Shown one piece after another: positions 56,445 through 61,670 of a stretch of DNA of 64,000 nt. The translations under genes were made by a program, and so were the position numbers. Numbering within the stretch: the stretch's first letter is position 1; each line of letters begins with the position of its first letter. Below the pieces are notes generated by a model. That model searched no databases, had not been told where the DNA came from, and worked only from the letters and a program-made list of their open reading frames with translations. Origin of the DNA: Armatimonadota bacterium (GTDB taxonomy: Bacteria > Armatimonadota > Fimbriimonadia > Fimbriimonadales > ATM1); contig QEUM01000008.1 of NCBI GenBank assembly GCA_003577165.1, positions 1-64,000 of the forward strand, written 5' to 3'.

Positions 56445-56843
56445 TTATGAAGAGTTGTCTTCGATGACGGCCTCGGCCTCGATCTCGACCAGCCACTCCG
56501 GTTCGAGAAGTTGGGCGACGACCATTGTCGCGGCAGGCCGAATCTCTCCGAAGCGCTCGCCGTGCGCCCGGCAGACGGGCCCAAAGTTCGCTCTCTCGGA
56601 AATGAAGATGCGCGTTCTCACAACGTCTTGCAGCGTGCCGCCCGCTCGGCGGATGGCGTCCTCGATGATGTCAATCACGCGATGCGCTTGACCGTAGGCG
56701 TCGCCCGGGCAGGCGGTGCGACCGTCCTCGTCGATCGGCGCAGTGCCGCTCACGAAAATGTGATTTCCGACCCGCACTGCTCGGCAGAATCCGATCTTGC
56801 CTTCGTAGGGCGAAACGCCGGAGATTCGCTGTCTGTCACTCAT
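56445..56843 (-). CDS. RidA family protein
   Basis: The 132-residue protein matches the RidA/YjgF family, whose archetype hydrolyses reactive enamine/imine intermediates. IFVSGTAPIDEDG, QAHRVIDIIEDAIRRAGG and RPAATMVVAQLLEPEWLVEI (the substrate-binding Arg is kept) are visible. The ATG overlaps the stop of the DUF2961 gene by eight bases, so it is the downstream gene of that pair. Confidence 0.9.
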   Translation of the reverse strand: MSDRQRISGVSPYEGKIGFCRAVRVGNHIFVSGTAPIDEDGRTACPGDAYGQAHRVIDIIEDAIRRAGGTLQDVVRTRIFISERANFGPVCRAHGERFGEIRPAATMVVAQLLEPEWLVEIEAEAVIEDNSS

Positions 56844-58848
56844 CCGTGATTAGGAGGTAGTCGATGCCGAACATCATGCCCGGCGCAGCTGCGTCTCTCT
56901 TGCCCACGATTTCGGCCTCGAGTGTGTTCTTTTCCCGAACTTCCACCGAGCCGAAGTCAATCGTCTTGAGTTCGAGCGTAGGGTTGTAAAAGTCGATCGG
57001 CGGGCCGAGTTTCTCGCCATTCCAATAGAGTTGAATGATGCCGTAATCGCTCGCGACGCAGAAGCGTCCAATGAGCCTCTGGCGGCCGGCGCCCGCAGAA
57101 GGAACTTCCCAAGCCGTCCTGTCACCTGGCTTGCCGTGCCGCCACCAGACCTGCGCGAAGTTGGACCAACGATCATCGAGTCCCTGCGGGCCGATCTCAC
57201 CCGAACCACGCTTGAGAACCGCCAACTCCTCGCCTTCGATGGCGTTGGGATGCTTCTTGGCGGGGGGGATCTCGAAGACGCCGAGATCCGACTCGCGGAC
57301 CGGCATCAGGTTATCCGTAGATTCTCCGTCGGCGTACCAGTAGGCAATGGTCGCGAAATCTGCGCGCGTCTCCGCCCAGTGCCAGATCTCCATGTCGAAA
57401 CGGAACGAAGTGGTCCATGGCATATCGTCGATGATGTGCCAGCGGTTCACCGCAGTGTAGCCACGATTTCCGGGGCCGTCGCATCGAGGCTGGTTATGGT
57501 AAGGGTGCATGAACGGATCCGGACAGCACCAGGCATATCCAAAGTAGTCCTCCGTTCCCGTTCCAAACGTCGAGGGAAAGGCCTCGCCGTCAATGTAGAC
57601 CTTCTCGTCGCCTTCTCCCCACCATTGCGTCACAGGGTTGGCGACGAATTGCGCTGAGCCCACATACCTTCCGCGCCCTTTGGCCTCGAGGTAATTCCAG
57701 TCGCGCATCGGACGGGTCGAGATGGTGTCGCGCTTCCACTTCGCGCGGAAGTAGAGGGTCTCATCCGTGAACGGACGCGGAGTCCAGAGGACTTCCATCG
57801 AGACCTGGATCGGATACTTCGAGTGGTTGGTTAGGAAGAACCTGCCGGATTGCTTCTGCGGCATGACCCAGCGCGACTGCATGATCCCGGTGGATTCGTA
57901 GATCGTAACTGGGAAGGAAGAATAGGGCACGAATCCGGGAGCGGCACCGAAGAAGTCTCCGACGGGTGAGCTAATCGCCGACATCGAGTCGAAGTCCGCA
58001 TTAAAGACGACGCTGCGAAGCACCTGATCGTCTGGCGCTTGTTCTCCGAGTCCGTTCGGCGAGTTTTCGTCCGGCAGGAACCCCTTGCACCAGATGCTAA
58101 GTTGCCGCACGGCCCCCTCCCCAACGGGAGTGCGCAGCGTGAAGACCTGGCCGGGTTGAAGGATAGCGGCGTCCGCGACGACCCGGTCTTTTACAAACCG
58201 CTCGACCCTGGGAGACGTCAGTTTGTTCGCGATCGAGTTCGCGAGGATGGCTGCGTCCTTAACGTCTGCACGCTTGAAACTGTCTACTGCGGTCCCAGAT
58301 TCGTAGATCCTGTAATTCACGTGGTAGTAGAGCGACGCAGGATTCGCGTTCACATCATCTACAGTGATCTTGATACTCTTGGAGTAGGGGATCGGATAGT
58401 ACAGGTTCGCGCCCATGCTTCGCCGTCCGCTGAAGGGGGGGGCGAAGTCCGGATGCTTGCCGGAAGTGATGTCCTCGAATGAGGTTACGATCTCGGGCAT
58501 CTCCGCGCCGTCGACGTAAATCCGCAGGTTGCCTTGCGGGTTCGCCGTCCAGATGCGAACGACCGCTCCTGGGCCCTGAAGGTCGGCCAGCACGTACTCA
58601 TTCCGACCGGTCCTGCGCTCCACCCGCACGAAGTTCCCGTGGTCTCGATTTGCTAACCAGTTCTCGTTTGGGCCTTTCGCGGCCGGATCGTAACTGCTGG
58701 CTTGGCGTGTCACGTATCGCGGCGAAGGCAACGCCGAGAGCCGATCCAGGTCGGCCATCTCCTTGAGGAGGGTCCTTACATTTACGGATTGCGCCTGGCC
58801 CGCGCTCGCGCACAGGAGAAGAACTAAGAGCCCCCAAAGGTTTCGCAT
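56836..58848 (-). CDS. Secreted DUF2961 family protein
   Basis: The mature frame starts at an ATG (58848) with GAGGTAGG upstream and has a signal peptide (LVLLLCASAGQAQ), giving 670 residues. Characteristic segments are LADLQGPGAVVRIWTANPQG, YYPIPYSKSIKITVDD, ASLYYHVNYR and TFGTGTEDYFGYAW. DUF2961 proteins are common in polysaccharide-degrading bacteria, and some members have been shown to be glycoside hydrolases, but the substrate here is unknown. A C-terminal jelly-roll-like region follows. The frame is open 39 bases upstream, but SD position favours 58848. Confidence 0.85.
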   Translation of the reverse strand: MRNLWGLLVLLLCASAGQAQSVNVRTLLKEMADLDRLSALPSPRYVTRQASSYDPAAKGPNENWLANRDHGNFVRVERRTGRNEYVLADLQGPGAVVRIWTANPQGNLRIYVDGAEMPEIVTSFEDITSGKHPDFAPPFSGRRSMGANLYYPIPYSKSIKITVDDVNANPASLYYHVNYRIYESGTAVDSFKRADVKDAAILANSIANKLTSPRVERFVKDRVVADAAILQPGQVFTLRTPVGEGAVRQLSIWCKGFLPDENSPNGLGEQAPDDQVLRSVVFNADFDSMSAISSPVGDFFGAAPGFVPYSSFPVTIYESTGIMQSRWVMPQKQSGRFFLTNHSKYPIQVSMEVLWTPRPFTDETLYFRAKWKRDTISTRPMRDWNYLEAKGRGRYVGSAQFVANPVTQWWGEGDEKVYIDGEAFPSTFGTGTEDYFGYAWCCPDPFMHPYHNQPRCDGPGNRGYTAVNRWHIIDDMPWTTSFRFDMEIWHWAETRADFATIAYWYADGESTDNLMPVRESDLGVFEIPPAKKHPNAIEGEELAVLKRGSGEIGPQGLDDRWSNFAQVWWRHGKPGDRTAWEVPSAGAGRQRLIGRFCVASDYGIIQLYWNGEKLGPPIDFYNPTLELKTIDFGSVEVREKNTLEAEIVGKRDAAAPGMMFGIDYLLITDE

Positions 58849-58905
58849 AAGACCTACCTCGCGATTGGCCGTACTGATTTTCACCACTCCACCGCGCGTT
58901 TCCTT

Positions 58906-58914
58906 TGATATAAT
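58906..58914 (+). promoter_or_regulatory. Extended -10 promoter of the c-di-AMP riboswitch
   Basis: TGA-TATAAT (TG at 58906-58907, TATAAT at 58909-58914) is a perfect extended -10 element. It places transcription start near 58921, immediately before the riboswitch. Confidence 0.75.
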
Positions 58915-58921
58915 GACTCCT

Positions 58922-59045
58922 TAGCCGAATCTGGGCGCCGCCCGGAACGGGGGAACCACGACCGAGTGGGGTGAATGCCGAACCCGGCAAGAGCAGCTCT
59001 TGGCTCTAACCCGTCAGCTAACCCCGTAGGCGAAACGAGAGCCTG
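58922..59045 (+). ncRNA. Cyclic di-AMP riboswitch (ydaO-yuaA type)
   Basis: The sequence carries the conserved blocks of the ydaO-yuaA riboswitch in order: GCCGAATC, ACGGGGGAACCA, TGGGGTGAA, a variable hairpin (AGAGC-AGCTCTTGGCTCT), CCCGTCAGCTAACCCCGTAGGC, then GAAACGAGAGCC. The GTCAGCTAACCCCGTAGGCG block is close to invariant in the family. It follows an extended -10 promoter and ends about 60 bases before a small basic protein. In known cases the ligand is c-di-AMP and the controlled genes concern potassium, osmolyte or cell-wall metabolism. Confidence 0.9.
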
Positions 59046-59107
59046 ACCGTGGGCACAGAGTGGTGCCGATGGGCGTGCTCCTGGACCGACATCAAGGAGG
59101 TATCCGC

Positions 59108-59389
59108 TTGGTGACTGAATTCGAAGTCCGACGGGAGTTGGACGCGATCGAGGCAGCCGACCTGCACCCTCGCCGCAAAGCGCGGCGTCTCCTCGCCCTT
59201 GCGAGGATTGCGCGCCGCGAGGCCCGGAAGATCGCCAAAGGAGCGGCCATCCTGTCCCTCGACTGCATGGACGAACAGGCGAGCCGGCTTCGGCGGGTGG
59301 TGGCGCGGATGGAAACCTTGGGGCGCGATGTTCGCCATCGCGCGCGACGCCTACTTGCGGGCGCGTCAGCGCCGCGCCAGGAGACCTGA
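59108..59389 (+). CDS. Small Arg-rich protein downstream of the c-di-AMP riboswitch
   Basis: This 93-residue protein starts at a TTG (59108, seven bases after AAGGAGG) or at the next GTG (59111). It is helical and strongly basic: PRRKARRLLALARIARREAR and RRVVARMETLGRDVRHRARR. No family is recognised. It is the only gene between the riboswitch and a terminator at 59414, so it is the sole obvious target of c-di-AMP control. A role in osmotic, wall or potassium homeostasis would follow from the riboswitch but is pure inference. Confidence 0.6.
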   Translation: MVTEFEVRRELDAIEAADLHPRRKARRLLALARIARREARKIAKGAAILSLDCMDEQASRLRRVVARMETLGRDVRHRARRLLAGASAPRQET

Positions 59390-59413: not shown

Positions 59414-59458
59414 GCGCCGGAGGGCTCGATGACGCGCCTTCCGGCGCAATTCTTCTCC
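59414..59458 (+). terminator. Terminator after the riboswitch-controlled gene
   Basis: GCGCCGGAGG (59414-59423) pairs with CCTTCCGGCGC (59437-59447) with one bulge, followed by AATTCTTCT. Confidence 0.6.
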
Positions 59459-59534
59459 GAACGACTTCGGCCGAGCCGACAAATTTATTGGGTTGACCGC
59501 GCGATCCGCGGGCGCTTCCGCTTCGGGCGATAGA

Positions 59535-61670
59535 ATGGCTCCTCAAGTGGGAAAGCGAAGCGAGCGAAAGAGGCAACTCGTTCCACTTCCCGTCCGGCCG
59601 AGCGGCCAGAAGCCGCGCGAATCGAGGCGGTGGAGGTGGCGTCTCCTCGTTTTGATCGGCGTGCACGTCGCCATCGCGCTTCACATCTGGCATTGGTACG
59701 CGAAGGGACGAACGCTGAGTCCCGTCGAGCCAAGCGAGTCCATGCAGACTCTGGAATTCGGATACGTTAACGCGGGCTTCATTCTGTTCTGTTTCGCGAT
59801 CCTCGCGACACTGATCTTAGGAAGGTTCTTTTGTGGGTGGGCGTGTCACATCGTCGCGCTTCAAGATGTGTGCGGTTGGGTTCTTCGGAAACTCGGTTTG
59901 CGACCGAAGCCTTTTCGATCTCGCTTGCTGGTGTGGGTCCCCGTAGTTACCGCGCTCTATATGTTCGTATGGCCGCAGGTCGTTCGAATTACGGAAGGAC
60001 GCCCGTTTCCGCGGCTCGCGAACCACTTGATGACTGACGACCTCTGGGCGACTTTTCCAACCGTCGGCGTCGGTCTCCTCACGTTCTTCGTCTGTGGGTT
60101 CTTGATCGTGATGCTCTTGGGCAACAAGGGATTCTGTACGTATGGCTGCCCCTATGGAGCGTTCTTCTACCATGCCGACCGATTCGCTGTTGGAAAGATT
60201 CGTGTAACGGATGCATGCCAAGGATGCGGGCACTGCACAGCCACGTGCACCTCGAACGTGCGCGTGCATGAGGAGGTGCGCAAATACGGGATGGTCGTCG
60301 ACGCAGGCTGCATGAAGTGTATGGACTGCGTCGACGTTTGTCCAAACGGAGCGCTGTATTGGGGAATCGGCAAGCCGTCCCTCGGATCCAAAGCGCGCGC
60401 GGATCGAGTCCGACCTCGACCGAAATACGATTTCACACTACAGGAGGAGTTGGTTCTCGGTCTGCTTGTGATCGCGTGCTTCTATGCGTTTTATCGCTTG
60501 TACGACGCCGTCCCGCTCCTACTTGCTGTCGGTCTTGCAGTCACGACCGCGTACGTCATCTTCGTGCTTGCGGGTCTCATCTATCGGAGAAACGTTCGAA
60601 TCCTGCGCGTGCAGGCGAAGCGCAACGGACGGCTCACGGGACCGGGAGCGTTTGCCGCCGCATTTGGGGTCGGGCTGGCGTGGCTCGTCGGCTACTTTGT
60701 CGCCCTGCAGTGGCATGTCAAAGAGGGCCTGTACATGCTGTCTCAAGTCCAGAGTCTCCGCGCATCGGCGCCTCCTGAGGAGTGGGAGCCGGCGGCACGC
60801 GAAGCCCTCGACCATTTGCGTTGGGCATCGGAGCGGACGCCCTTCATCGTCGCGGATTGGGAATTCAACATCGGCAGCCTGCTTCTTGCATTGGGCAAAC
60901 CAGGGGAGGCCCTCGAACACCTCTACACTGCACAGAAATTCACCGCGGACCGCGCGGACTCGTATCTTGCGATCGGAGATGCGGAACTGGCTTCGATGTC
61001 GGCTGAGAAGGCGGAAGCCGCCTACCGTCAAGCCGTCCGCCTCGCCCCAACTTCAGTCGGGGCGCGGATCAAGTTGAGCGGCGCGCTGGCCACTCAGAAC
61101 AAGTTGGACGAGGCGATCCGGGAGTTTCGCGAAGCGATCCGGCTCGGCGCCCACGACCCGAACGATCGCTCAAACTTCGCATTCCTGCTGCTTCGAGCCG
61201 GACAGCGGGACGAGGCGATCGACGTGATGAGGACCGTCGTGAAGGACGCGCCAAACGACGCGAGGGCGCGATTCAACTTCGGCATGATGCTGATGGACGC
61301 CGGGCGCTCGGACGAAGGGCTGGATGAGATCGAAGCGGGCCTCTCGCTCGACCCAGCGCTTCCCGGAGGTCGCGCCGCCTTCCTCCTTCGCGCGCTGGAT
61401 GCGGGCCGGGCGGAGCGGGCCTTCCTCGCCGGCGAGAGATGGAGGGAGGAGCGGCCGTTCGACCACGAGATCCTCCATGCTTGGGCGACCGCGGCCAAGG
61501 TCACGGGGAGGCTCGACAGGCTCTGTCAGGAGTTGGCGCGGCGGCCGGCGGCGGACACGGCCTCCTGGTACGCCCTCGCCTTCCTGTACGTGGAGAGAGG
61601 GGAGCGGGCCGCCGCGGATTCGATTTACTCAGTTCTACTCAAACGGAACCCAAACCTAACCCGTCCGTAG
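59535..61670 (+). CDS. NapH/CcoG-like membrane ferredoxin fused to TPR repeats
   Basis: The first ~300 residues form a membrane 4Fe-4S protein: several helices, FFCGWACH and CTYGCPYGAFF cysteines at the membrane, then a 2[4Fe-4S] ferredoxin domain with CQGCGHCTATC (about 231) and CMKCMDCVDVCP (about 258). This pattern is found in NapH, CcoG/RdxA and NosR-type proteins. After further helices the C-terminal ~310 residues are TPR repeats, with (A)xxxYRQAVRLAPTSVGAR and similar. The ATG at 59535 is used; a GTG at 59547 is also possible because TAGAAT lies at 59531-59536. The partner reductase is unknown. Confidence 0.8.
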   Translation: MAPQVGKRSERKRQLVPLPVRPSGQKPRESRRWRWRLLVLIGVHVAIALHIWHWYAKGRTLSPVEPSESMQTLEFGYVNAGFILFCFAILATLILGRFFCGWACHIVALQDVCGWVLRKLGLRPKPFRSRLLVWVPVVTALYMFVWPQVVRITEGRPFPRLANHLMTDDLWATFPTVGVGLLTFFVCGFLIVMLLGNKGFCTYGCPYGAFFYHADRFAVGKIRVTDACQGCGHCTATCTSNVRVHEEVRKYGMVVDAGCMKCMDCVDVCPNGALYWGIGKPSLGSKARADRVRPRPKYDFTLQEELVLGLLVIACFYAFYRLYDAVPLLLAVGLAVTTAYVIFVLAGLIYRRNVRILRVQAKRNGRLTGPGAFAAAFGVGLAWLVGYFVALQWHVKEGLYMLSQVQSLRASAPPEEWEPAAREALDHLRWASERTPFIVADWEFNIGSLLLALGKPGEALEHLYTAQKFTADRADSYLAIGDAELASMSAEKAEAAYRQAVRLAPTSVGARIKLSGALATQNKLDEAIREFREAIRLGAHDPNDRSNFAFLLLRAGQRDEAIDVMRTVVKDAPNDARARFNFGMMLMDAGRSDEGLDEIEAGLSLDPALPGGRAAFLLRALDAGRAERAFLAGERWREERPFDHEILHAWATAAKVTGRLDRLCQELARRPAADTASWYALAFLYVERGERAAADSIYSVLLKRNPNLTRP

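Follow-up and report, generated by a model that had tools for sequence, protein, structure and literature searches.

A c-di-AMP riboswitch in Armatimonadota precedes a clade-specific family of small helical proteins

Riboswitch targets have repeatedly shown what a signal controls. A leader found in the first 64,000 nucleotides of contig QEUM01000008.1 from an Armatimonadota bacterium (this whole stretch is called the window below) therefore raises the question of what cyclic diadenosine monophosphate (c-di-AMP) might govern when its riboswitch precedes the gene of a small protein from no recognised family. Our answer is that this ydaO-class riboswitch probably controls, most likely at the level of translation, a monocistronic gene for a basic three-helix protein whose family is confined to the class Fimbriimonadia. 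The riboswitch class is known, the target family is new and clade-specific, and there is a testable link to cyclic-nucleotide-binding proteins. The elements concerned are the following.

58906..58914, forward strand: perfect extended -10 promoter element TGaTATAAT, seen in the sequence
58913..59046, forward strand: aptamer RF00379 (ydaO/yuaA leader) found by cmscan, with P1 formed by 58924-58926 and 59029-59031
59094..59100, forward strand: Shine-Dalgarno sequence AAGGAGG, seen in the sequence, 7 nt before the TTG at 59108
59108..59389, forward strand: gene of the 93-residue basic three-helix protein, TTG start at 59108 (GTG at 59111 possible), based on homologues, substitution rates and AlphaFold2

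The sequence-only reading of this locus had placed a ydaO-yuaA riboswitch behind a perfect extended -10 element, and both are borne out. Indeed, RF00379, the c-di-AMP riboswitch, is the sole Rfam match within the window; it scores far over the family threshold, with 80.7 bits where the gathering score is 38 (E 3.7e-17), and the covariance model is aligned end to end (positions 1-134). Given the position of the -10 element, transcription is predicted to start at about 58921, within the first base pairs of P1; no good -35 element was found upstream of the aptamer at this locus. The aptamer is a leader element, with the promoter on its 5' side and the open reading frame (ORF) downstream on the same strand. 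A diadenylate cyclase domain (PF02457) is encoded elsewhere in the 2.75 Mb genome (G000:C22, E 4.7e-35, above cut-off), which speaks for gene presence only, and such a gene was found in all 21 genomes checked, this one included. Judged by its fit to the model, the locus is a ydaO-class c-di-AMP riboswitch in Armatimonadota, with ligand binding itself predicted. It shares with the ydaO/yuaA leaders a full-length aptamer well over the gathering score and a c-di-AMP synthase gene in the genome, but differs in its target, a clade-specific small helical protein rather than a transporter, osmolyte system or wall hydrolase, and in its expression platform, which is probably translational.

The ORF is a real gene, since it has homologues across Fimbriimonadia, close pairs of the family show a ratio of nonsynonymous to synonymous substitution rates (dN/dS) of 0.11-0.18, indicating purifying selection, and its family is linked to the aptamer in most members, as detailed below. 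The TTG codon is favoured as the start because it is aligned with the starts of the homologues, among which the N-terminus MLTEFEVRR is conserved. The description of the product as an Arg-rich helical protein of 93 residues without a recognised family also stands: it has no meaningful score to any Pfam or NCBIfam family and none over a curated cut-off, the best PHROG match has an E of 0.078 (PHROGs have no curated cut-off), and no sequence relative was found in the PDB, where the best profile match is Tfx (E 0.12-0.15). AlphaFold2 predicts helices at residues 4-16, 21-51 and 55-86, with a predicted local distance difference test score (pLDDT) of 91.9 when the sequence is used alone and 95.1 when three relatives are added, so that the protein is modelled with confidence as three helices, a common fold. 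Foldseek searches of both libraries gave no match with E <0.4, only generic helical bundles, and in VIA-align many helical bundles of no relation score Z of about 9, which is below a meaningful level for such folds. That this is the sole gene before the next terminator, as had been proposed, is plausible because of a moderate terminator-like hairpin ahead of the next gene.

59414..59456, forward strand: terminator-like inverted repeat GCGCCGGAGG...CCTTCCGGCGC then AATTCTTCT, seen in the sequence, with the hairpin at about 59414-59447

A terminator scan recovered the inner stem of this hairpin, with 3 sites found against 0.9 expected.

Homologues of the window protein (family A) were found in about 30 genomes when relatives and afterwards the whole class Fimbriimonadia were searched, and in a profile search of 291 genomes of the phylum the matches were confined to this class. 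A phage origin of family A was considered and rejected, no relative being found among the viral contigs searched. RF00379 is present in 84 of the 113 class genomes, from which 136 loci above cut-off were fetched and their downstream genes sorted by profiles. Family A follows 30 of these riboswitches, two similar small helical families, groups D and C1, follow 13 and 8, and Tad1 homologues without a small-gene match in the first round follow 6 (57 of 136 together), the other 79 riboswitches leading to other genes. Seen from the protein side, 36 family A matches were obtained at E 0.001 in the class, and one inside a 692-residue frame was discounted; 30 of the remaining 35 genes lie behind an RF00379 aptamer, one of them as the second gene of an operon. 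The homologues of the small protein thus do recur behind this riboswitch, a point on which the sequence-only reading could have failed, and with about 1.2 riboswitches per genome chance cannot account for it. Four of the five copies that lack the riboswitch are divergent from a putative extracellular solute-binding gene (by eye). In G070 and G072, which belong to the same genus, the copies that do have the riboswitch adjoin this gene as well, so that G071 and G073, without the riboswitch, look like cases of riboswitch loss at one locus. Taken on profile and covariance-model matches, family A is a genuine protein family, new and specific to this clade, whose linkage to c-di-AMP riboswitches is conserved. 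This linkage speaks for regulation of the genes by c-di-AMP, not for the role of the protein. The whole class would then use c-di-AMP on unnamed small proteins, partly alongside homologues of a known cyclic-nucleotide-binding protein, and these loci offer a short list of genes among which novel functions or receptors of c-di-AMP could be sought in Armatimonadota.

What kind of target might this be? Described ydaO targets include K+ and amino-acid transporters as well as wall and osmotic-shock proteins (PMC7266159). The list given by the sequence-only reading (ion transporters, osmolyte systems, wall hydrolases) is too narrow for this class, in which RF00379 also stands before HisB-HisH, MFS transporters, a SurA-like foldase and an opine-dehydrogenase-like enzyme. 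Two of these occur in the window genome.

G000:C13:75802-75935, reverse strand: second riboswitch of the genome, before a SurA/PPIC-type foldase, with a U-run terminator
G000:C14:127813-127943, forward strand: third riboswitch of the genome, before an octopine-dehydrogenase-like (opine-dehydrogenase-like) enzyme

About 24 loci (L056, L069, L090 etc.) have the riboswitch before hisB (IGPD), frequently followed by hisH, which is an unusual target; in most hisB leaders there is an additional hairpin on the 5' side, and the -10 element lies more than 20 nt ahead of P1. In the open-access literature, subscription papers being outside the scope, no paper was found on c-di-AMP riboswitches in Armatimonadota or Fimbriimonas, nor on such a riboswitch with HisB. 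The known targets would fit a protein that regulates, after translation, a transporter or an envelope process responding to changes in osmolarity or potassium, c-di-AMP relaying the signal; moreover, MFS transporters are among the genes behind the riboswitch in this class, and in G068, G094 and G033:C6 the family gene is itself followed by an MFS-like gene. However, most loci, the window included, have no conserved neighbour, and the protein is by its sequence too polar to span a membrane, so that we consider this role rather unlikely. Across family A no general gene neighbour gives a functional hint. In the window, the gene directly downstream (59493-61670, forward strand), which starts 104-150 nt past the small gene, encodes a membrane protein in which a NapH-like polyferredoxin is joined to TPR repeats, and the riboswitch is adjoined by a divergent gene for a DUF2961 protein (56836-58887, reverse strand). 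Judged by eye, G006 has a similar divergent neighbour, and in G004 a gene that may be DUF2961-like lies 3' of the family gene.

The composition of the protein suggests another role. With 20 Arg and 3 Lys it has a net charge of +10, and most family A members are basic, as might be expected of a stress-induced protein associated with DNA, RNA or the ribosome. On the other hand, the codon bias of high G+C favours Arg, the net charge ranges from 0 to +18 in the family, some members being near neutral, and no family or fold of this kind was found, the match to Tfx being the best. Binding of nucleic acid or of the ribosome is thus unlikely.

The manner of control was approached through the segment between aptamer and gene, in which two elements overlap.

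59039..59080, forward strand: hairpin after P1, candidate anti-anti-Shine-Dalgarno helix, GAGC 59039-59042 with GCUC 59077-59080 (RNAfold)
59078..59082, forward strand: CUCCU, complementary to the Shine-Dalgarno sequence, overlapping the 3' arm of the hairpin

The longer family A leaders have a hairpin starting about 8 nt after P1, with arms GAGC:GCUC, GAGCGUC:GACGCUC, GAGUGUC:GACGCUC and GAGGaCCAU:AUGGCCUC, and group D leaders have arms GAGAAUGC:GCAUUCUC and GAGGGUGG:CCGCCCUC. The CUCC at the end of the 3' arm can alternatively pair with GGAGG of the Shine-Dalgarno sequence, and both helices compete for it. Compared with shuffles, the anchored hairpin pairing is in excess in 15 family A leaders (Fisher p 3e-6) and in 7 group D leaders (9e-6), as is the pairing of CUCC with the Shine-Dalgarno sequence (family A 5e-6, group D 0.04), although these combined values are not strict probabilities, the loci being related. 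The window leader alone is significant in neither respect (hairpin p 0.68, CUCC pairing p 0.07). One family A subgroup has a shorter platform, in which a covarying hairpin (CCAGA:UCUGG, CCGGG:CCCGG, CCGAA:UUCGG) abuts AGGAGG, and group C1 leaders have neither a post-P1 hairpin nor a segment that pairs with the Shine-Dalgarno sequence. As in the window, a -10 element ending 7-10 nt 5' of P1 is found in C1, most D and several family A leaders.

A conventional switch that turns genes off by terminating transcription, with the small ORF merely the nearest gene, would agree with the SurA-type leaders of the same family of genomes, which have terminator hairpins with long U-runs. To our knowledge, the well-studied ydaO riboswitches all turn genes off. 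However, the small-protein genes begin 13-108 nt past the aptamer with no U-run between; in the window the distance is only 62 nt, and the linkage to the ORF is conserved, which makes a terminator switch quite improbable. Translational control by the window riboswitch is likely, since the competing helices are above chance across loci and no U-run follows the hairpin. Once P1 forms, the tail of the mRNA would either fold into the GAG...CUC hairpin, hiding CUCC and leaving the Shine-Dalgarno sequence free, or let CUCC pair with the latter; ligand binding would be expected to bias the choice between the two. We lean weakly to ON as the sign of regulation, because the hairpin is compatible with P1.

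Several results weigh against this account of a riboswitch-controlled, family-specific target. Five family A members have no riboswitch, and the predicted fold has no specific match by Foldseek or VIA-align. In free-energy folding, the accessibility of the Shine-Dalgarno sequence averages 0.48 with P1 enforced and 0.47 with P1 forbidden, so that the switching model is unsupported by energies. Moreover, a helix of the 3' strand of P1 that would couple P1 to the hairpin is not enriched (Fisher p 0.84) and was discarded.

The best lead to function, by guilt by association, comes from Tad1-like genes. Tad1 homologues lie on the chromosomes of 68 of the 113 class genomes, and 16 are behind c-di-AMP riboswitches; in 13 of these 16 operons a small helical gene stands directly before, mostly by 5-47 nt. 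In group C1 a Tad1-like gene is always alongside (8 of 8 riboswitch loci), and an extended profile found further small genes behind riboswitches, including some of family A type directly before Tad1-like genes.

L101, L096, L077; G013:C34:6442-6759; G048:C1:203267-203578: examples of Tad1-like genes

The Tad1-like protein of the neighbouring family A5 matches solved Tad1 chains (E 9e-5, phmmer) and PHROG 2428 (1e-13). Tad1 (Thoeris anti-defence 1), a phage sponge, binds glyco-cyclic ADP-ribose (gcADPR), cyclic trinucleotides and, weakly, c-di-AMP (PMC12043709). The likeness to that system lies in the homologues that occupy related riboswitch operons beside small helical genes, whereas the window protein is not Tad1-like (E 0.37 between the family A and Tad1-like profiles) and the one Tad1-like gene of its genome lies elsewhere (G000:C8:137391), with no riboswitch nearby. 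Because similar families share riboswitch operons with Tad1-like genes, we consider the small protein most likely to work inside the cell as a dedicated partner or modulator of the c-di-AMP response, a guess by analogy of gene context. The recurrence of the pairing makes it very probable that the family belongs to the c-di-AMP pathway, and that the protein is an effector of c-di-AMP is a good hypothesis. These operons also provide a bacterial context for Tad1-like proteins, which are known from phages.

A more specific proposal casts the protein as a c-di-AMP sponge: made in response to the riboswitch, it would assemble into oligomers and trap c-di-AMP, closing a feedback loop, much as the phage proteins Acb2 and Tad1 capture the cyclic nucleotides of immune systems. 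This is very doubtful: the Acb2 protomer has a matching description (93-94 residues) and binds 3'3'-cAA (PMC12043709), and Tad1-like genes, whose products have a fold able to bind cyclic dinucleotides and trinucleotides, accompany small helical genes, but the family has no sequence similarity to Acb2, three-helix bundles are common and no Acb2 chain appears in the 50 best structural matches listed. The absence of Acb2 and Tad1 chains among the structural matches listed excludes nothing. Homology to Acb2 was rejected, since hhalign aligned the family profile and PaMx33 Acb2 over a single column (E 0.52). Acb2 (anti-CBASS 2), a phage sponge of cyclic oligonucleotides, agrees in size and in helix order, short and then two long antiparallel (PMC12043709), with the window protein as predicted; the window gene is host-chromosomal and unrelated in sequence. 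A wider version, in which the small helical proteins (A, D, C1) and Tad1-like proteins would form a chromosomal buffering module of Fimbriimonadia that binds c-di-AMP, the signal setting the level of its own sponge, is a long shot; were it true, phage sponges such as Tad1 would be viral relatives of a housekeeping second-messenger buffer.

Family A and group D profiles give a borderline match to each other (101 columns, E 1.5e-4, probability 52%).

G050:C1:2523387-2523785; G110:C57; G084:C1: examples of group D genes

What looks like a decaying riboswitch-gene pair occurs at G057:C20:171098-171544 (reverse strand), where an incomplete RF00379 match of 35 bits precedes a group D homologue that is broken by an internal TGA. 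Of the 13 group D proteins, 8 end in a conserved PFM(E/D)(Y/F)S(S/A) and one more in the variant KFMQFSA, and the DNA pattern for this peptide matches almost exclusively group D genes. A different tail motif, like FGYxP...PxW, occurs past the helices in family A of G048, G023, G106, G099 and G070:C63 and in group D of G094:C1.
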